Shown here in pieces: positions 38,781-47,651 of a DNA stretch of 64,000 nucleotides. Location of the stretch: contig JAJYSP010000006.1 of NCBI GenBank assembly GCA_021793515.1, positions 1 to 64,000 on the forward strand, in the 5' to 3' direction. How positions within the stretch are numbered: the first letter of the stretch is position 1; every line of letters begins with the position of its first letter. The notes under the pieces are model-generated. The model had not been told where the DNA came from and did no database searches. It was given only the letters and a program-made list of their open reading frames with translations. Made by a program: the position numbers and the translations under genes. The DNA is from Actinomycetes bacterium. Its GTDB lineage: Bacteria; Actinomycetota; Acidimicrobiia; Acidimicrobiales; RAAP-2.

Positions 38781-39353
38781 TCAGCGAGCGGTCTTCACCG
38801 GCCCCTGCTGCACGCGAACGACCAACGCGATGAGCGTCAGCCAGACGCCGATCACCAGCGAGAGCAACACCAGCACCGTCCATCGGCCGATCAGGCCGTC
38901 GGGTCGCAGACTCTCCACCGCGCCCGCGAACGGGTCGGTGCGTGCGGCCTGGACCGTCAGCGACGTCGTCGCGAGAACCGCACCGGAACTATCCACCGCT
39001 GAGGCCTCGAAGTTCTGTGTACCGGCCCACGTCGGCTGGTACACAATCGTGGCGACCCCGGCTGCGTTGGTCGTCGCCGTGCCGATCTCCAGCAGCGGGG
39101 CACCGGCGAACTCCTCGACGTGCACGTAGAAGTTGACCGTCGTGTCCGCCATTGGCGCGGCGGACGCGTTGGCGACCTGGGCCGTCAGCTCGACACCGCG
39201 CTGTGACGCGGGACTACCCGACGTCAGGGCGAGCGTCGAACCTGTGGAGGCTGCCGCCGGCAGGGCGGCCGCCGCGACGCTGAGCAGCACCACGCCGCCC
39301 AACCCCGCGAGTGCGCGCGTTGCGAGACGAGAGAAATTGGCTACTGATATCAC
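38781..39353 (-). CDS. Exported Ig/CARDB-like protein with C-terminal TM helix (hypothetical)
   Basis: GTG start overlaps NrfD-like stop; signal peptide (ALAGLGGVVLLSVAAAALPAAAS), beta-rich VELTAQVANASAAPMADTTVNFYVHVEEF..., C-terminal WTVLVLLSLVIGVWLTLIALVV. Confidence 0.65.
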   Translation of the reverse strand: MISVANFSRLATRALAGLGGVVLLSVAAAALPAAASTGSTLALTSGSPASQRGVELTAQVANASAAPMADTTVNFYVHVEEFAGAPLLEIGTATTNAAGVATIVYQPTWAGTQNFEASAVDSSGAVLATTSLTVQAARTDPFAGAVESLRPDGLIGRWTVLVLLSLVIGVWLTLIALVVRVQQGPVKTAR

Positions 39354-40756
39354 GCGCCCACCTCCTGGGAATCGAGCTCCTCGTGGCCCTCGGCAAGCTC
39401 TTCCATCTCCGCCATCGACAGAATTGGAACGAAGCGGAACACGACGAGCAACAGCAACGGAATGGCTGCGGTCGCGGCGATCGTGATCGAGATCGGCACC
39501 CACGTGAAGTGATACGTGCCCCAGTTGCCGGCAAGGACGCCACCCTTGGCCAGTGGCGAGTTCACAAGCGGCTCGGTCGCCGGGGGGATGACGATGACGA
39601 GCCGCTTGATCCAGAGCGCGGCCACCACGAGGAACGAGGCGACCACGACACCACTGGTGGTGCGAAACCGTCGGAACATCATGATGAACAGAGGCGCGAT
39701 GCCCCCCGCGACGAAGTAGATCCAGAACGGTATGGCGTAGCGACCCGCAACGATCTGGTACACCCAGGCGGATGCCCCGGCCGTTCCCGAGTAGCCGTCG
39801 ATGAGGTACTCGGTGAAGGTGAGGTACAGGTACGCCGCACCGAAGGCGATCATCAAGAACCCGAGGCGCACGAAGTGCCGGGGGGTGACGAACGCCTCGA
39901 GGTGGAAGAGATTGCGCGACGCGGCGACCGTCAGCACGACGAGCGCGACACCCGAGTAGAGCGCCGCGACGACGAAGTAGACGGGCAGGATTGTCTCCAT
40001 GTAGCCGGCCCGCGAGGACGATGCGAACGCGAAGGACAGCACCGAGTGCACCGAGACCGCCATCGGAATGATCATGATGGCGATCAATCCGATCGCCCCA
40101 TTCAGACGACGCCGCTCGTACGGTGTGCCGCCGAAGCGGCCGACGAGGACGCGGTAGAGCGACTTGCGCACCTTGACTCGTGTCGACGGCGCCTCATCCT
40201 CGAAACGCTCGAGGGCGATCGCCGCGTCCGGGACGAGTGGCAGGTAGAAGAAGACGATCGTCGCGAGGAGGTACGTGCTCACGGCGAAGAAGTCCCAAAG
40301 GATCGGCGACGTGAGGTTCCAGTACGGGGGCCACACGAGCTCCCAGATCCGGCTCGGGTCACCCAGGTGCGGGATGATGAAGACCATCCCGATGGGCAAC
40401 GTGACCAGGGCGGTGGCTTCGGCGATCCTCGTCAGTGGTGCACGCCACCCGGCGTGGGTCAGACGAAGAATGGCCGACACCACGGCGCCGCCGTAGCTCA
40501 CCCCGATGAAGGTCACGAGGTTGGCCTCGTAGATCGCCCAGAAGGCGCCGTCGCTATAACCCGCCGTGCCCAGGCCGTTGGCGACCTGATAGACCCAGGC
40601 CGCGATGCCGCCCAGCACGATCACCGTCAACACCGCGATCGAGGGCCACCACCACCGGGGCGTCTCGAGCACCGGTCGCATCGCCGCCGCTCGAAGGTCG
40701 GCGTTCTGGGGCGCCGCTTGATCGCGCCCCACGTTTGGAATGATGACGTCAGTCAT
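39350..40756 (-). CDS. NrfD/PsrC/ActC-like integral membrane subunit
   Basis: 468 aa, about 10 TM; FWAIYEANLVTFIGVSYGGAVVSAILRL, PHLGDPSRIWELVWPPYW, SVHSVLSFAFASS resemble NrfD/ActC family motifs; next to a multi-Fe-S subunit. Confidence 0.82.
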   Translation of the reverse strand: MTDVIIPNVGRDQAAPQNADLRAAAMRPVLETPRWWWPSIAVLTVIVLGGIAAWVYQVANGLGTAGYSDGAFWAIYEANLVTFIGVSYGGAVVSAILRLTHAGWRAPLTRIAEATALVTLPIGMVFIIPHLGDPSRIWELVWPPYWNLTSPILWDFFAVSTYLLATIVFFYLPLVPDAAIALERFEDEAPSTRVKVRKSLYRVLVGRFGGTPYERRRLNGAIGLIAIMIIPMAVSVHSVLSFAFASSSRAGYMETILPVYFVVAALYSGVALVVLTVAASRNLFHLEAFVTPRHFVRLGFLMIAFGAAYLYLTFTEYLIDGYSGTAGASAWVYQIVAGRYAIPFWIYFVAGGIAPLFIMMFRRFRTTSGVVVASFLVVAALWIKRLVIVIPPATEPLVNSPLAKGGVLAGNWGTYHFTWVPISITIAATAAIPLLLLVVFRFVPILSMAEMEELAEGHEELDSQEVGA

Positions 40757-40778: not shown

Positions 40779-41636
40779 TCACGACGCGCTCGGGTTGTTG
40801 TTCAGGTCCTGGCCGTGGCCGGGGATGTAGTACACGCGTGGGTGGGTGCCGTACTCCTCCTTGAAGACGACGGCGTCGTTCTCGGCGAGGTAGGTGGAGA
40901 TCTTCACCGTGTTACCCATGCCGTTGACCGCAGCGTCCGAGGTCAGGTCACCGAAGTAGATCACGCCCATCGGGCAGTGGGTCACACACTCGGGCAACTG
41001 ACCGGTGGGCAGCATGGCCGCGCACTCGATGCACTTGCCGACGGTGCCCTTTACCTGCGGCACGGGCCACTCGGGCTCCTGCTTGAACGGCTGGCGTGGT
41101 GCCGGGACCGGGTCTGACCAGTTGAAGTAGCGCGCGTCGTAGGGACAGGCGTTCATGCAGATGCGCGTCCCGATGCACTTGCTCTGATCGACGAGCGTCA
41201 GGCCCTCCGGGGTCCGGAAGTTCGCACCGACCGGACAGACCGGCACACACGCGGGGTCTTCGCACATCTGGCACGGACGAGGCATGAAGTAGTTCTCGCC
41301 GGCCGCGTTCTGCATCGTGTAGACGTTCATCCACGTCTGGTCCTCATGCAGGTAGTGGGCCGTCTGGCAGGCGGTCGTGCAGAGCTTGCAGCCGTTGCAC
41401 AGGCGCAAGTCGATAATCATGCACCACTGCTTCACCGGCCCGCTCGGCGTGGTCGTGGCCGGCTCGGAGGCGGCGGCGAGCGTCTCGGTCAGCGCGCCGA
41501 GCACCCCGACGCCCAGGCTGCCGAGAGCCGCGGCTCGAAGGAGTCCACGCCGGCCGATGGTGACGGCCGCGGCCGTCAACTCCTCGTGCTGCGCGTCGTC
41601 AGTCGCAACGATTTCGTTGTCGTGTTTCGTGGTCAT
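40779..41636 (-). CDS. Tat-exported ferredoxin-like protein with four Fe-S cluster motifs (NrfC/DmsB/ActB-like)
   Basis: GRRGLLRAAALGSLGVGVLGA Tat-like signal; CNGCKLCTTAC, CQMCEDPACVPVC, CIGTRICMNACPYDARYFNW, CIECAAMLPTGQLPECVTHCP. Confidence 0.88.
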   Translation of the reverse strand: MTTKHDNEIVATDDAQHEELTAAAVTIGRRGLLRAAALGSLGVGVLGALTETLAAASEPATTTPSGPVKQWCMIIDLRLCNGCKLCTTACQTAHYLHEDQTWMNVYTMQNAAGENYFMPRPCQMCEDPACVPVCPVGANFRTPEGLTLVDQSKCIGTRICMNACPYDARYFNWSDPVPAPRQPFKQEPEWPVPQVKGTVGKCIECAAMLPTGQLPECVTHCPMGVIYFGDLTSDAAVNGMGNTVKISTYLAENDAVVFKEEYGTHPRVYYIPGHGQDLNNNPSAS

Positions 41637-42373
41637 GCTGCTTCCACCTTGATCGAACCTTCCATCCACTTCATGGTCGACATCGCGCCGCCCATGCCAT
41701 TCGTGCCTGCGCCGCACGGGGCGTAGCACTGCCACGTGAAGGTCCCCGTCTTGGTGGGGACGAACGTTGCGACGACCGTCACCGACTTGCCGGTTGGCGC
41801 AGCGGGAATCGGCATGTTAAAACTCAGCCCGGGCACCGTGAAGGTGTGGGCCACGTTCGTGTCCGACACCGACGAGATCGCGTGGCCCGCGACCGTCTCC
41901 TGTCCGGTGGTCGAACCTTGGACCTTCGCGAACATCATCTGAGCGCCCATGAGCGGCGCCGTGCCGTCATCGAAACTGACGATCTTTACGGTGACGCGCT
42001 CGCCGACCTGCACGGTCCAGTCCGGGTTCGTGTATTGCGGCTGATCGCCAAAACCGGTCAGGGACCCCGTCACGATCTTCATCGTCTCGGTCACGTGGCC
42101 GTGCGGGACAATGGCCGCCGGCGGGTTCGAGCGGGTGAGTCGCGTCACGCCGGCGGCGATGCCACCGACCAACGCGACCGTGACGGCGAGTCCGACCAAA
42201 ATGCCGGCGATCGATCCGAGAACCACGCCACCGTTACGGGCGAACGTTGCAGGACGACGCCAACTCAGACGGCCGAGGCGGTCGAGCGGATCGAGAGCGC
42301 CGAGACGCGCGAGCGGACCCCGGGCGCTCTCACGCCCGGGGTCGTTCACGCCAGTGGTGTGGCGGTTACTCAT
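41633..42373 (-). CDS. Membrane-anchored CuA/Cox2-like cupredoxin, paralogue 1
   Basis: N-terminal TM anchor; NVAHTFTVPGLSFNMPIPAAPTGKSVTVVATFVPTKTGTFTWQCYAPCGAGTNGMGGAM resembles the Cox2 CuA region. ATG overlaps upstream stop (42371-42375). Confidence 0.75.
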   Translation of the reverse strand: MSNRHTTGVNDPGRESARGPLARLGALDPLDRLGRLSWRRPATFARNGGVVLGSIAGILVGLAVTVALVGGIAAGVTRLTRSNPPAAIVPHGHVTETMKIVTGSLTGFGDQPQYTNPDWTVQVGERVTVKIVSFDDGTAPLMGAQMMFAKVQGSTTGQETVAGHAISSVSDTNVAHTFTVPGLSFNMPIPAAPTGKSVTVVATFVPTKTGTFTWQCYAPCGAGTNGMGGAMSTMKWMEGSIKVEAA

Positions 42374-42939
42374 CAACTGACCTTGACCTTGCCCGTCATC
42401 CACCCGGTGGTCTTCATCGCGCCGTTCATACCGACGGTGCCCGTGCCACAGGGGGCGAAGCAGTTCCAGGTGAACGTGCCGGTCTTCTTAGCGATGAAGC
42501 TCGCCGTGACGACGATGCTCTTGCCGGTCGGAGCGACCGGGATCGGCATGTTAAAGCCCAGTCCGGTGATGGTGAAGGTGTGCGAGACGTTGATGTCCGA
42601 CACGTTGCTCACGGTCTTGCCGCCGGCGACTTCCTTGCCATTCAGCGTGCCCATGACCGACGTGTACTTCATGTACTTGCCCATGAGCGGCGCTGCGCCG
42701 TCGTCGTAGCTGATGATCTTGACGGTCACGGTCTGACCCTTGTGCACGGTCCAGGCCGAGTTGGTGATCTTCGGCTGCTCGCCGCTACCCGCCAGCTTGC
42801 CCGTGGTCAGGATCTTCATAACCTCGGTCACGTGGCTGGGTGTGGCCGCGCTCGCCGTGGCGCCACTGACGACACCGGCGCCCAGCACGGGTGCGATGAC
42901 GAGTGCCAGGGCTGCCGCCTTGGTCATTGGGTGCTTCAT
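42373..42939 (-). CDS. Exported CuA/Cox2-like cupredoxin, paralogue 2
   Basis: Signal peptide; NVSHTFTITGLGFNMPIPVAPTGKSIVVTASFIAKKTGTFTWNCFAPCGTGTVGMNGAM. Confidence 0.75.
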   Translation of the reverse strand: MKHPMTKAAALALVIAPVLGAGVVSGATASAATPSHVTEVMKILTTGKLAGSGEQPKITNSAWTVHKGQTVTVKIISYDDGAAPLMGKYMKYTSVMGTLNGKEVAGGKTVSNVSDINVSHTFTITGLGFNMPIPVAPTGKSIVVTASFIAKKTGTFTWNCFAPCGTGTVGMNGAMKTTGWMTGKVKVS

Positions 42940-42999
42940 CTCATGTCTCCTCTTGGTTGAGTACTGCGATCCCGCTCGAACGCCTTGTTCGCGCCGGTA

Positions 43000-43560
43000 C
43001 TACTTGACGTGAACCTCACCCGTCATCCAGCTCATGGTCGACATCGCGCCGGCCATACCGTTGGTGCCGCTGCCGCACGGGGCGTAGCAGTGCCAGACGA
43101 ACGTGCCGGTCTTCTTGGCAACGAAGCTCGCCGTGACGACGATGTGACCGCCAGTCGGTGCGACGGGGATCGGCATGTTGAAGCCGAGTCCGGGCACGGT
43201 GAAGGTGTGGGCGATGTTGATGTCGGACACGTTGGCGACCGGCTTGCCGTTGACGAGCTCCTTGCCGTTGAGCGTGCCCTTCACGTTCGCGTACGGCATG
43301 TACTTGCCCATGAGCGGCGCCGTGCCGTCATCGAAACTGACAATCTGGACGGTCACGGTCTGACCCTTTTGCACGGTCCAGGAGGCGTTGGTGATCTTCG
43401 GCCAACCCGGCTTGTGGTCCATCTTGCCGGTGATCAACCGCATGTGCTCGACCACGTGGGTCGGGGTCGCGGCCGCGGCACTCGTGCTCGTGAGTGACAC
43501 CGCAGCCAGTGGGGCGGCGGCTAGCAGCAACGCGGTCAACGTGGTAATCGGGCGCTTCAT
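43000..43560 (-). CDS. Exported CuA/Cox2-like cupredoxin, paralogue 3
   Basis: Signal peptide; NIAHTFTVPGLGFNMPIPVAPTGGHIVVTASFVAKKTGTFVWHCYAPCGSGTNGMAGAM. Confidence 0.75.
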   Translation of the reverse strand: MKRPITTLTALLLAAAPLAAVSLTSTSAAAATPTHVVEHMRLITGKMDHKPGWPKITNASWTVQKGQTVTVQIVSFDDGTAPLMGKYMPYANVKGTLNGKELVNGKPVANVSDINIAHTFTVPGLGFNMPIPVAPTGGHIVVTASFVAKKTGTFVWHCYAPCGSGTNGMAGAMSTMSWMTGEVHVK

Positions 43561-43614: not shown

Positions 43615-44181
43615 TCAGGCGACCACGGTGACGTAGCCGCGCATGTAGCCGTTGTGCGCCATCGCCCACTTGTCACAGGGCAGGGCGCAGAACCACTGGA
43701 TGGTTCCCGGCTTGGTGGGCTTAATCGTGAAGTGGGTGATCGACGGCGACGAGGCGGTGCCCGCCGGGGCCACAGCACTCACGTTCAGGTCGGGCGACAT
43801 CCACGAATGCGACTGCACGTCGTAGTTGTAGATCGTGACGTCGTAGGTCTTGCCGACGGTCATGGTGAAGGTTCCTGGGACGAAGGCGTCATGGACCAAG
43901 CCATCGGGGCCCTTCACGCCACCGAGCGGCGGCGGGTTGATCTCGAGCTTCACCTGGACGGCGTTTGAGGCGCTCGCGGGTACGACGGCGCTGGTCGACG
44001 CGCCGGGGGCCGGGGTCGTGCCCGTCACCTTGTGCCAGATCGCGCCGGCGCCGGCGGTGATCGCAAAGACGACCGCCGCGACGATGACAATCCCCGCGAT
44101 CAAGTTCACCAGTCCGCGAACCCGATGTGTCTCTGCTCCGCCGTTACCTCGGTTCACCACGGTCGTTTCGCTGCTCATCAT
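43615..44181 (-). CDS. Membrane-anchored cupredoxin, divergent fourth member
   Basis: N-terminal TM; NYDVQSHSWMSPDLNVS and TKPGTIQWFCALPCDKWAMAHNGYMRGYVTV (His, Cys-x3-Cys-x6-His-x3-Met). Confidence 0.75.
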   Translation of the reverse strand: MMSSETTVVNRGNGGAETHRVRGLVNLIAGIVIVAAVVFAITAGAGAIWHKVTGTTPAPGASTSAVVPASASNAVQVKLEINPPPLGGVKGPDGLVHDAFVPGTFTMTVGKTYDVTIYNYDVQSHSWMSPDLNVSAVAPAGTASSPSITHFTIKPTKPGTIQWFCALPCDKWAMAHNGYMRGYVTVVA

Positions 44182-44558: not shown

Positions 44559-45233
44559 GTGGCCGACACCGAAGTGGTCAATTCGAGGTCGATATCCGTC
44601 ATCGTGGTTGACGATCACGAGGTCGTGCGAGAAGGAACCCGCAAGATGCTCGAGCGAGACCCCGATATCGTGGTGGTCGACGAGGTGGGCTCGGTCCAGG
44701 ACGCCCTCGTGTCCGCGCGGCGATTGCGCCCCCGGCTCATGGTCATCGACGTCGAGTTGCCCGACGGCAGTGGCGTCGAGGTCGTGCGCGAAGTTGTGGC
44801 CGAGAAATTGCCGATCCGTTGCCTGATGCTCTCAGCCCACGACGACTACGTCTACTTCTCCGAGGCGCTCGCCGCGGGCGCCGGCGGTTACCTCTTGAAG
44901 ACCGCGAGTGCGGCGGAATTCGTGGCCGCGGCCCGGACCGTCTCGGTGGGCGGCACGGTCATCGACGGCTCGCTCTCGCACCGGCTCGCCGGTCGGCGTC
45001 AACCACCCGAAGAGGAGCTGATTCACCGGCTCACGGCGCGCGAGCTCGACGTCATCGCCGCCCTCGTGCGGGGCCGCTCCAACAAGGAGATCGCCCTAGA
45101 ACTCGGCATCGGACTGCGCACCATCGAGAGTTACGTCTCGGCGATCCTCAACAAGCTGGGCGTGCGCTCACGAACCGAAGCGACGATCTTCGCGATCGAA
45201 CACCACCTCGCGTCACCCAAACCGAGCAAGTGA
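44559..45233 (+). CDS. NarL/LuxR-family response regulator
   Basis: SVIVVDDHEVVREGTRKMLERDPDI, LMVIDVELPDGSG, GAGGYLLKTASAAEFV, LTARELDVIAALVRGRSNKEIALELGIGLRTIESYVSAILNKLGVRSRTEA. Confidence 0.94.
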   Translation: MADTEVVNSRSISVIVVDDHEVVREGTRKMLERDPDIVVVDEVGSVQDALVSARRLRPRLMVIDVELPDGSGVEVVREVVAEKLPIRCLMLSAHDDYVYFSEALAAGAGGYLLKTASAAEFVAAARTVSVGGTVIDGSLSHRLAGRRQPPEEELIHRLTARELDVIAALVRGRSNKEIALELGIGLRTIESYVSAILNKLGVRSRTEATIFAIEHHLASPKPSK

Positions 45234-46669
45234 GTACGCCCAACCCCCGTATCCCGATCCGTGAGATCCTCGTGCGGGCACTGCACCCGCCCGTTCGCGA
45301 ATGGGCCTTTTGGGGCGTGCAGGCAATGGTGGTGTTCTGGGCCGTGATCCACGTGTGGGTCGACATGAGTAGCGCGTTGCACGGCAGCGTCCTGCCCTAC
45401 GGCGTGCCGATCGACCTGCTGCTGATCCCAGTCGGCTACGCCGCCCTGCGTTATGGCCTCTCCGGTTCGGCCGCCACCACCATCTGGGCGATCCTGCTGT
45501 GGATGCCCGACCTCCTGATCCCCGACGACCAGGGCCACTACCAGCAAGACCTCGTCCAACTCTTCGTCGTCACGGTGGTCGCACTCTTCGTTGGGCTCGA
45601 GATCGAGCGTGCCCACCTCGAACGGGCTCGCGCCGAGGTCGCCGAGGCCGAACGTCGCGTCGCCGAGCAGCACTACCACCGGCTCTTCGATGTGAACACG
45701 GCGCCGATCTTCCTGATCGATCCGTCGGGCACCGTGTTGGAGGCCAATCCCGCGGCGTTGCACCTGAGTGCCGGCGCGACGGCACGGCGGATCACCGACC
45801 TGTTCGATCTCGCCGACCACGACCTTGTCGAAGGCCGGACGAATCAGCTCACCATCCAGCAATCCGACGATGACGAGGAGCGCAACTTCCGCGTCTCAGT
45901 CACCAATTTCGAACCGAGCGCCGTTGGGCCGATTCGCCAGGTGGTCCTCGAGGACGTCACCGAGGAGTACCGCTCCGAGCGCGAGGCGCGAGCCTGGGCG
46001 ATCGAGGTCCTGCGGGCCCAAGAGGACGAGCGGCGTCGCATCGCCCGCGAAATCCACGACGACCCGCTGCAGCGTCTTCTCCAACTGGCCCGACGTCTCG
46101 AGGTCCTCGGCTCCCCGAGCGAGCAAATGGATGGTGACGAGCGCGTCGAGCAGTTCGTCACGGTGCGCGAAGAGTTGCTCAACGTCGTCGGGCACCTGCG
46201 CGAGGTCACCCGCGGACTGCACCCGGCCGGACTCGACCAACACGGGCTCGTCGCGGCGGTCCGTGGACTGCTCGTCGACCTCGAGGTCGACGAGGGCCTC
46301 GTCACCGACTTCATCGTCACCGGGGACATCGTCAGCGGTTCCCACGAGGCCGAGGTCGGGCTCTTTCGCATCGTTCAAGAGGCGGTGCGCAACGTCATCC
46401 GCCACGCCCGAGCGGCGAACCTCGTCGTGTCGATCCACTACGTGAAAGATTGCGCGCACGTCACGATCGTCGACGACGGCGTCGGCTTCGACGTGAGCCG
46501 CGACAGTCTCGTCTCGGGCAATCACCTTGGGATCTTGAGCATGCGCGAGCGCGCGAACCTCCTCGACGGTCACTGCGAGGTCACCTCGACGATCGGCGAG
46601 GGGACGACGGTCGAAGCCACCGTGCCGCTGCACCGCGTGGCGGTCGAGGCCATGGTCCGTCGCGACTGA
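45230..46669 (+). CDS. Membrane PAS sensor histidine kinase (HisKA_3/NarX-DegS type)
   Basis: N-terminal TM helices, PAS-like YHRLFDVNTAPIFLIDPSGTVLEANPAAL, RRRIAREIHDDPLQRLLQLARRLEVL, HATPase_c EAVRNVIRHARAANLVVSI, DDGVGFD; GTGA overlap with the regulator gene. Confidence 0.92.
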   Translation: MSTPNPRIPIREILVRALHPPVREWAFWGVQAMVVFWAVIHVWVDMSSALHGSVLPYGVPIDLLLIPVGYAALRYGLSGSAATTIWAILLWMPDLLIPDDQGHYQQDLVQLFVVTVVALFVGLEIERAHLERARAEVAEAERRVAEQHYHRLFDVNTAPIFLIDPSGTVLEANPAALHLSAGATARRITDLFDLADHDLVEGRTNQLTIQQSDDDEERNFRVSVTNFEPSAVGPIRQVVLEDVTEEYRSEREARAWAIEVLRAQEDERRRIAREIHDDPLQRLLQLARRLEVLGSPSEQMDGDERVEQFVTVREELLNVVGHLREVTRGLHPAGLDQHGLVAAVRGLLVDLEVDEGLVTDFIVTGDIVSGSHEAEVGLFRIVQEAVRNVIRHARAANLVVSIHYVKDCAHVTIVDDGVGFDVSRDSLVSGNHLGILSMRERANLLDGHCEVTSTIGEGTTVEATVPLHRVAVEAMVRRD

Positions 46670-46685: not shown

Positions 46686-47651
46686 TTACTGGGCAGCGAC
46701 TCGTGGCTTCGACAACGGCCAGAACGTCCACGCGAGGAGTGCGATCAGCGGTCCGGAGTTGACGTCCGTACCCTGCGCCGTCAGGAGTCCGCCGAAGTCC
46801 TGGACGAGCCACACGAACGCGGCGAAGACCATCGCGACAATCAGTGCCGGCCGCACGAGTGCTGGCTTGGCGACGGTGATCGCAATGACGAGACTGACCA
46901 GCGCGAGGCCGAGCGAGAACGCGAGGCCGCGACCAGCGAACACGGTCGCGAGGCCGTGGTCGATCGACCGGACCCAGCCCGGCTCACCGGACGCCGCGCC
47001 CATCACCAGGTCGTGCATCGCCTGGGGCGCCCGATTCGCAGGGAGCAGGAAGTACACCGCGAAGTCGACCCAGAGCACGACCCAGGCCGCTATCGCGCCT
47101 CGGCGACCCCAAGGACCGGCGTCGACGACCGAGGTCGCGTCACCACGATTAGACGGCCAGATCAAAATCGCGATCACGGCGTAGAGCACGACCGCACCCG
47201 GTTGACCCGCGAGCGGCGAGCCGCCGGCGAATACACCACCGAACCCCTCGGCGAACCACCAGACCGCCAGGCTCCAGACGATCGAGGTCCCCAAGGCAAA
47301 TCGGGCAGTGGGGCGCCAGAACAGGCCGAGCGCGATCACGAGTTGCAAGGTGGCGTAGAGCGCGTTCCACCACGCGATGTCGTGGACCATGAAGTGGTCC
47401 GCCCAGATCATGGGTTGCACGATCAGCCACGGGCTCCCCGACGCTGCCGGTTCGAGTGCGCCGGTCACGAAGGCCTTGGTGAACATGAAGGGCTGGAACT
47501 GGAGGGCCGCGTCAACGAGCCAGATGACGCCGAGAGCGATCTGGAGTGTACGCCGGCGCACCTCGAGCGGTGTCGTCGTGGCGTGCGTCGTCGTCCGACT
47601 CCGCCAACGAGTTGACGTCATGGGATTGACTACGTGACTCGACACCGGCAC
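46686..47651 (-). CDS. Multi-pass membrane protein of unknown function
   Basis: LQIALGVIWLVDAALQFQPFMFTKAFVTGALEPAA..., several TM helices; convergent with the kinase gene. Confidence 0.7.
   Translation of the reverse strand: MPVSSHVVNPMTSTRWRSRTTTHATTTPLEVRRRTLQIALGVIWLVDAALQFQPFMFTKAFVTGALEPAASGSPWLIVQPMIWADHFMVHDIAWWNALYATLQLVIALGLFWRPTARFALGTSIVWSLAVWWFAEGFGGVFAGGSPLAGQPGAVVLYAVIAILIWPSNRGDATSVVDAGPWGRRGAIAAWVVLWVDFAVYFLLPANRAPQAMHDLVMGAASGEPGWVRSIDHGLATVFAGRGLAFSLGLALVSLVIAITVAKPALVRPALIVAMVFAAFVWLVQDFGGLLTAQGTDVNSGPLIALLAWTFWPLSKPRVAAQ

Follow-up and report, generated by a model that had tools for sequence, protein, structure and literature searches.

A candidate cupredoxin family with a modified CuA-type motif, encoded beside an alternative complex III-like quinone module in an Acidimicrobiales genome

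A cupredoxin array encoded together with a quinone module

The 64,000-nucleotide stretch analysed here (the window; positions 1 to 64,000 of contig JAJYSP010000006.1) belongs to a metagenome-assembled genome (MAG) of the order Acidimicrobiales, lineage RAAP-2, of 2.38 Mb and 97.65% completeness. On its minus strand it carries an operon in which four genes encoding small cupredoxin-type proteins, transcribed in the order cup4-cup3-cup2-cup1, are followed by a gene for a four-cluster iron-sulphur (Fe-S) protein exported by the twin-arginine translocation (Tat) pathway and then by a gene for an NrfD protein. We favour, by a modest degree of confidence, the reading that the cup proteins carry electrons by means of copper, in a site derived from CuA, and exchange them with a haem-free quinone module resembling alternative complex III (ACIII). 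An earlier note on this DNA described three of the cupredoxin genes; it overlooked the ACIII-like Fe-S/NrfD operon, which holds most of the functional information, as well as cup4, which is a fourth, divergent member of the same array.

The three adjacent minus-strand genes reported at 41633-43560 correspond to cup1, cup2 and cup3, and the two shared motifs read exactly as had been quoted, (A/S)HTFT(V/I)(P/T)GLxFNMPIPxAPTG and KTGTFxWxC(Y/F)APCGxGTxGMxGAM. The description of two exported copies and one membrane-anchored copy also agrees with our analysis, as signal peptides are present in cup2 and cup3 and one N-terminal transmembrane helix in cup1. The most likely start of cup1 is the ATG at 42373, which overlaps the stop codon of cup2 (TGATG), rather than the GTG at 42403 of the listed open reading frame (ORF). 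Furthermore, cup1 overlaps the Fe-S gene (ATGA), the GTG start of a gene encoding a Big-type membrane protein overlaps the stop codon of the NrfD gene, and the intergenic gaps cup4-cup3 and cup3-cup2 measure about 55-60 bp. The cup4 protein has one transmembrane helix (residues 23-41) and looks dissimilar (30% identity to cup1), yet in a profile comparison its entire domain aligns with the cup1-3 family (E 1.5e-22).

When 85,488 species were scanned for the pattern, 18 other loci were found, all of them in actinobacterial MAGs, with orthologues 50-91% identical and mostly in the same gene order; the similarity among cup1-3 is therefore far beyond chance. Outside the window, 32 loci have the cup, Fe-S and NrfD genes next to each other, 16 of this first set and 16 from whole genomes of ten other families of the order.

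Cupredoxin fold and family assignment

Residues of the mature cup3 protein are numbered here from its first residue, and full-length positions are obtained by adding 31. The earlier note had proposed structure prediction as a check, and the AlphaFold2 (AF2) model of mature cup3, built on a 56-row alignment, shows a confident cupredoxin fold with CuA-type topology (predicted local distance difference test, pLDDT, 88.2; predicted TM-score, pTM, 0.85). The modelled Greek-key beta-sandwich places cup3 in the cupredoxin superfamily by fold. In this model the Cys stands at a strand end and M148 directly ahead of the last strand, which are the classical positions, while M142 lies within a short helix of the loop. 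Foldseek found the best matches of cup3 in the CuA domain of N2O reductase (N2OR; E 4.9e-6) and in rusticyanin, and further matches in CotA and AcoP; the TM-scores, around 0.5, bear on the fold and not on the metal site. The AF2 model of cup4 has lower confidence than that of cup3 (pLDDT 69.7), and similar folds were Cupredoxin_1, nitrosocyanin, Thermus CuA and CupA.

No Pfam or NCBIfam model recognises cup1-cup4 above its cut-off. The Pfam COX2 model reaches 14.5 bits with cup1 (cut-off 22) and does not match cup2 or cup3, the CoxB model reaches 18.8 bits with cup3 (cut-off 147.7), and Pfam Cupredoxin_1 reaches 24.9 bits with cup4, slightly below its cut-off of 27. The best Pfam E-value of cup2 was to a viral superantigen model (18 bits, cut-off 25) and was treated as chance. 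Alignment of the family with the Cox2 profile by hhalign gave a 43% probability, with the His and both Cys in register (HTF over HSF and CxxPCG over CSELCG). The parallel drawn in the earlier note between the H...C-x3-C layout and Cox2 is thus supported, but 'Cox2-like' does not stand as a family statement, with scores far below the Cox2 cut-offs and other Cox2 features missing: the cup proteins have no or one transmembrane helix instead of the two-helix N-terminal anchor. Judged from their sequences, they are not members of Cox2. The type 1 (T1) loop, Cys-x(n)-His-x(n)-Met, is not present either, as its His is absent in cup1-3 and in nearly all their relatives. In the open-access literature on cupredoxins in Acidimicrobiia, or on cupredoxins associated with ACIII or NrfD, we found no description or biochemistry of the cup family.

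Conservation of the putative metal-site residues

An alignment of 56 sequences is fully invariant at G, H87, F, C127, P, C131, M142, M148, G and V and at no other column, and the cup4-type sequences retain H, C, P, C, M, x5, M, x, G. The pattern C-x2-P-[C/S]-xn-M-x5-M-x-G is present in 123 of the 128 family stretches, and in the remaining five the loop is missing or the stretch stops ahead of it. Because this loop motif served for selection, the counts for C, P, M and G are partly circular; the His is not in the selection pattern. The loop motif emerged independently in two alignments, one of the 56-sequence set and the other of the cup4-type set. Enrichment of H, C and M among columns conserved at >=95% is formally modest (p 0.0026 over all).

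As the earlier note had observed, the second Cu-binding His is missing from the C-x3-C loop: across the 123 members with a complete motif, the loop His of CuA is not conserved. The Cox2 of the same genome retains this His in C-x3-C-x3-H-x2-M (RCSELCGIWHGSM), and Cox2 (ctaC) proteins from the same loci keep the canonical C-x3-C-G-x2-H-x2-M. The retention of the Cys pair, the upstream His and the Met residues was also claimed, and it applies to the His (123/123), to the Cys and to two Met, namely those of 'GGAM' and 'WM/YM'; the Met of NGM is not family-wide, and the ctaC-linked members have Gly, Phe, Asn or Trp at its position. This loop Met169 was rejected as a replacement ligand since those members do not keep it. 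The His of cup4 at C-x3-C-x6-H was likewise rejected as the CuA His, as this loop position holds a His in just 17 of 30 cup4-type sequences and is not conserved, and the gapless alignment of the same His with Met169 was discarded, because profile alignment matches M-x5-M instead. A paralogue in another locus (L095:461-988, minus strand) shows Ser for the second Cys (CMAPSGTG) and offers a natural test of whether that Cys is necessary.

The Fe-S/NrfD module and alternative complex III

The third cluster motif of the Fe-S protein reads C-x2-T-x2-C-x3-C, the same as in most related proteins, and for this reason one [3Fe-4S] and three [4Fe-4S] clusters are predicted, the complement of ActB in ACIII (PMC5928083). 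The protein matches ActB in its Fe-S domain (6f0k_B, 6lod_B and 8k9e_B) and also matches PsrB. The best models were DsrO for the Fe-S protein (166.8 bits) and DsrP for the NrfD protein (63.4 bits), both below the curated cut-offs. The sole PDB relatives of the NrfD protein are subunits C of ACIII (6f0k_C, E 1e-45; 6btm_C, 2e-41). In the alignment with subunit C, Trp82, His139 and Asp169 of the quinol pocket (PMC5928083) and Ser245, in Rhodothermus marinus numbering, correspond to W73, H130, D155 and S235, which are constant in all aligned relatives.

The operon therefore shares with ACIII (ActABCDEF; 6f0k, 6btm, 6lod, 8k9e) an ActC-type NrfD with the pocket Trp, His and Asp, and an Fe-S protein exported by Tat, whose four cluster motifs include one predicted [3Fe-4S]. 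It differs in having cupredoxins instead of the Mo-like domain B1, ActA, ActE, ActF and ActD. The 285-residue Fe-S protein contains ferredoxin domains only and not the Mo-like domain B1 of ActB; no CXXCH motif of the haem-c subunits ActA/ActE occurs among the ORFs of the cluster; the second NrfD-type subunit, ActF, was not found, with one NrfD match in the whole genome; and no ActD was recognised. DsrOP, NrfCD and PsrBC have the Fe-S and NrfD quinone-reactive pair in common with the operon, but the cluster contains no recognisable catalytic subunit of the Dsr, Nrf or Psr type.

Distribution and evolution of the family

Some member of the cup family was found in 91 of 398 genomes of the order, many of which have the ctaC-preceding type only. 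The Fe-S protein of the window is 85-89% identical to those of loci L008 and L014, which match MAG 8 and MAG 9 of an acid-mine-drainage study that assigned these MAGs to RAAP-2 (PMC8357290). In L014 the cup1 orthologue (L014:4811-5540) appears in two tblastn segments, probably a frameshift, either real or an assembly error.

A tree of 123 domains, weak in places as it is based on 143 columns only, separates cup4-type (30), ctaC-linked (14), membrane-anchored cup1-type and secreted cup2/3-type sequences. The earlier note had interpreted the array as a tandem triplication. Three adjacent paralogues are indeed present, but the tree argues for layered duplications and not for a single triplication, because the anchored cup1 line and the secreted cup2/cup3 line are separate clades common to all related loci. 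The secreted copies were duplicated independently at least two times, in the lineage of the window and in that of L009, L013 and G244. Genome G222 contains two near-identical tandem cup4-type genes (L048:3104-4465, minus strand) beside response regulators and apart from Fe-S/NrfD.

Proposed electron transfer and alternative explanations

In the reading that we favour, cup1-cup4 would be exported copper carriers of one new cupredoxin family. Their site may descend from CuA or have converged on it: it keeps C-x3-C, the N-terminal His and the C-terminal Met, lacks the loop His and has a further, invariant Met six residues ahead of the C-terminal one. Most simply, a CuA or T1 site with two His would have turned into His-Cys-Cys-Met-Met; the proposed ligands are the His, two Cys and two Met. 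In copper proteins, Met in place of His should favour Cu(I) and raise the potential, and the His-Cys-Cys-Met-Met set should favour Cu(I) and a high, acid-suited potential. The NrfD protein would oxidise (or reduce) quinone, the [3Fe-4S]/[4Fe-4S] chain would conduct the electrons, and in place of the haem-c subunits of ACIII there would be the cupredoxins, cup1 and cup4 as tethered and cup2 and cup3 as mobile carriers. The aa3 oxidase, in front of whose ctaC a further family member is encoded, would probably be the next acceptor; the direction could be downhill to this oxidase or uphill from an external donor, e.g. Fe(II). Transfer from ACIII to a cupredoxin (menaquinol:auracyanin) in Chloroflexus is cited in PMC3150298, so that the pairing of a quinone module with a cupredoxin has a precedent, although the parts list differs.

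Several points weigh against this reading. Copper binding by the cup proteins is something that we infer; loop residues 133-137 of the cup3 model have low confidence; the L095 paralogue has Ser for the second Cys; and two Cys, a His and a Met would fit a copper chaperone too. In the module, the NrfD protein has Ala for Asp253, which is among the three charged residues of the quinol pocket, and the Mo-like domain, haem subunits and ActF of ACIII are missing. Moreover, most relatives with the cluster also have a QcrC-type cytochrome bc1, hence the NrfD/Fe-S module would not be their sole complex III.

The nature of the site can be read in more than one way. Tentatively, a natural binuclear CuA-type centre with Met for one His might be present in these free and membrane-tethered carriers, which in acidophilic actinobacteria would then serve an ACIII-like quinone:cupredoxin oxidoreductase without haem. 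It is to a similar extent possible that the copper is mononuclear and T1-like (perhaps green or red): one Cu would be bound by the His, the C-terminal Met and the first of the two Cys, the fourth ligand would be either the other Cys or the additional Met, and PCG would stand where blue proteins have PGH. The presence of rusticyanin and auracyanin among the matches agrees with mononuclear copper, and so does the terminal [YWF]M-x-G-x-[VIL]-x-V, which fits the strand start at the axial Met of T1 sites; against it, the two Cys, four residues apart, have CuA spacing, and CuA domains rank first for cup3 in Foldseek. This choice alters the model of the site and not the role as electron carrier. The earlier note also offered a repurposed disulfide. 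In its favour, C-x3-C can close a metal-free structural disulfide, and one paralogue has Ser for the second Cys; against it, the His and both Met are conserved to the same degree as the Cys in all branches, which a disulfide does not explain, and we consider it very improbable.

Two further explanations concern function. The cupredoxins might, in the manner of rusticyanin or sulfocyanin, accept electrons from extracellular Fe(II) and split them downhill to the aa3 oxidase and uphill through Fe-S/NrfD to quinone. Many close relatives are acid mine drainage MAGs (e.g. L008 and L014), known Acidimicrobiaceae oxidise iron (PMC4714123), no Cyc2-type gene is reported in the RAAP-2 MAGs bearing the cluster (PMC8357290), ACIII has been proposed for neutrophilic Fe oxidisers (PMC4643136), and an aa3 oxidase is rate-limiting in Fe(II) respiration of Ferrimicrobium (PMC8350767). 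We nevertheless regard such a link as rather unlikely: the iron oxidiser Acidimicrobium ferrooxidans has the ctaC-linked member only, so the array is not required for iron oxidation in the order, and the cluster is also found in many order members without known habitat. Less probable still is a role in copper handling, in which the proteins would chaperone or store Cu(I) at a Cys2-His-Met2 site and load CuA/CuB of oxidases, and Fe-S/NrfD would keep them reduced or be unrelated. The soft, thioether-rich ligand set, the member directly upstream of ctaC and the resemblance of the cup4 fold to CupA and Cupredoxin_1 are consistent with it, but the genes co-localise strictly with the quinone/Fe-S module in the 32 loci, electron carriers better fit the membrane tethering and the presence of as many as four copies in one operon, and no copper-homeostasis gene besides the cup genes was recognised in the cluster.

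Comparison with known copper proteins

CuA sites are thought to require two His. CuA domains (Cox2/CoxB, PF00116, and N2O reductase) have the same cupredoxin fold as the cup proteins, with the HSF/HTF His, C-x3-C-G and the Met opening the last strand. The cup family differs in lacking the loop His, in the extra invariant Met, in a longer loop (10-11 residues from the second Cys to the first Met, but 4 in most cup4), in a His-to-Cys spacing of mostly 40 versus 35, and in that its members are free or single-helix carriers and not oxidase subunits. Auracyanin of Chloroflexales, a cupredoxin partner of ACIII with soluble and membrane-bound forms, has the role proposed here for the cup proteins, but shows a classical two-His T1 site and a weak sequence match (E 0.0011). 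Rusticyanin, sulfocyanin and AcoP are respiratory cupredoxins of acidophiles, the first and last of them fold matches, and have T1 sites with a loop His and no C-x3-C. PmoD is similar in having a CuA-type site with unorthodox ligands in a free cupredoxin; unlike in the cup family, its site lies at a homodimer interface in another part of the fold, with C-x7-M-x-H (PMC6189053).

If copper is bound as proposed, the family-wide replacement of the His would be a test of how far the potential and nuclearity of CuA depend on its ligands, and the proteins are all small and expressible. The operon suggests that ACIII may be reducible to a quinone and Fe-S core paired with copper carriers, and it is a concrete candidate for electron movement outside the membrane in uncultured acid-mine Acidimicrobiales.

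The ctaC-linked member and the respiratory chain

There are no oxidase genes in the cup/Fe-S/NrfD operon. Elsewhere in the same genome (contig C30; L046:9022-9716, minus strand) a single-copy member of the family, without a Pfam family match, lies directly upstream of and overlaps ctaC of an aa3-type oxidase. A family member directly before ctaC is also found in Acidimicrobium ferrooxidans ICP (G081), which lacks the cup array, and in many members of the order.

The genome of the window (G000) shows no match to the cytochrome c models PF00034 or PF13442, which may be a real loss or an assembly gap. All 51 other order members tested have such a match (51/51), and the idea that the lineage lacks cytochrome c and that cupredoxins replace it was dropped on this ground. 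In family-bearing members of the order, including G244 with the same cluster, there are typically two domains in one QcrC-type, diheme ORF of ~300 residues. Cytochrome c is present in 15 of the 17 genomes with related loci and absent in those of L005 and L006 (G769 and G770), through gene loss or for want of a contig. Contig C29 of the window's genome encodes a split cytochrome b (L055:4920-6484, minus strand), a 208-residue b6-type protein followed by a 313-residue membrane protein, and no Rieske gene was recognised beside it. An apparent fusion of a membrane domain and a Rieske domain (L109:8233-9393) is located in the same genome near a second cox1/cox2 pair.

Neighbouring genes

The coordinates of the genes and of the putative ligand codons are listed in Table 1. 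The gene of the Big-type membrane protein is found after NrfD in most loci. The LuxR-type regulator and the PAS/HisKA_3 kinase lie divergently upstream of the operon and are conserved together with the cluster.

Table 1. Features of the cup operon and its surroundings in the window
Feature	Position	Strand	Remarks
Membrane protein, Big-type Ig-like domain	38781..39353	-	GTG start; PF02369 below cut-off; C-terminal transmembrane helix
NrfD/ActC-type quinone-binding integral membrane subunit (predicted)	39350..40756	-	NrfD 94 bits
Fe-S subunit	40779..41636	-	Tat-type (RRGLLRAA) export; 16 Cys; 285 residues; ATGA overlap with cup1
cup1	41633..42373	-	Membrane-anchored paralogue; transmembrane helix 50-68; 55% identity to cup3; ATG start
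cup2	42373..42939	-	Secreted paralogue; signal peptide; 66% identity to cup3
cup3	43000..43560	-	Secreted cupredoxin, CuA-variant site; putative ligands H118, C158, C162, M173, M179
cup3 M173...M179 codons (M-x5-M)	43024..43044	-	Spacing constant in every branch, cup4 included
cup3 C158-Y-A-P-C162 codons (C-x2-P-C)	43075..43089	-	Both Cys in 122/123 motif-bearing members
cup3 His118 codon (HTF motif)	43207..43209	-	Invariant, 123/123; outside the selection pattern
cup4	43615..44181	-	Opens the array; divergent cupredoxin with membrane anchor; C-x3-C-x4-M-x5-M-x-G
LuxR/NarL-type response regulator	44559..45233	+	PF00072 and PF00196; divergent; syntenic, 46-100% identical
PAS/HisKA_3 sensor histidine kinase	45239..46669	+	Partner of the regulator; start position approximate

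Beyond the kinase gene, the minus strand of the window encodes at 46686-47651 a multi-pass membrane protein that has no Pfam or NCBIfam match and recurs near these clusters; in L020, L087, L094 and L095 a protein of this type is encoded between the Fe-S and NrfD genes.

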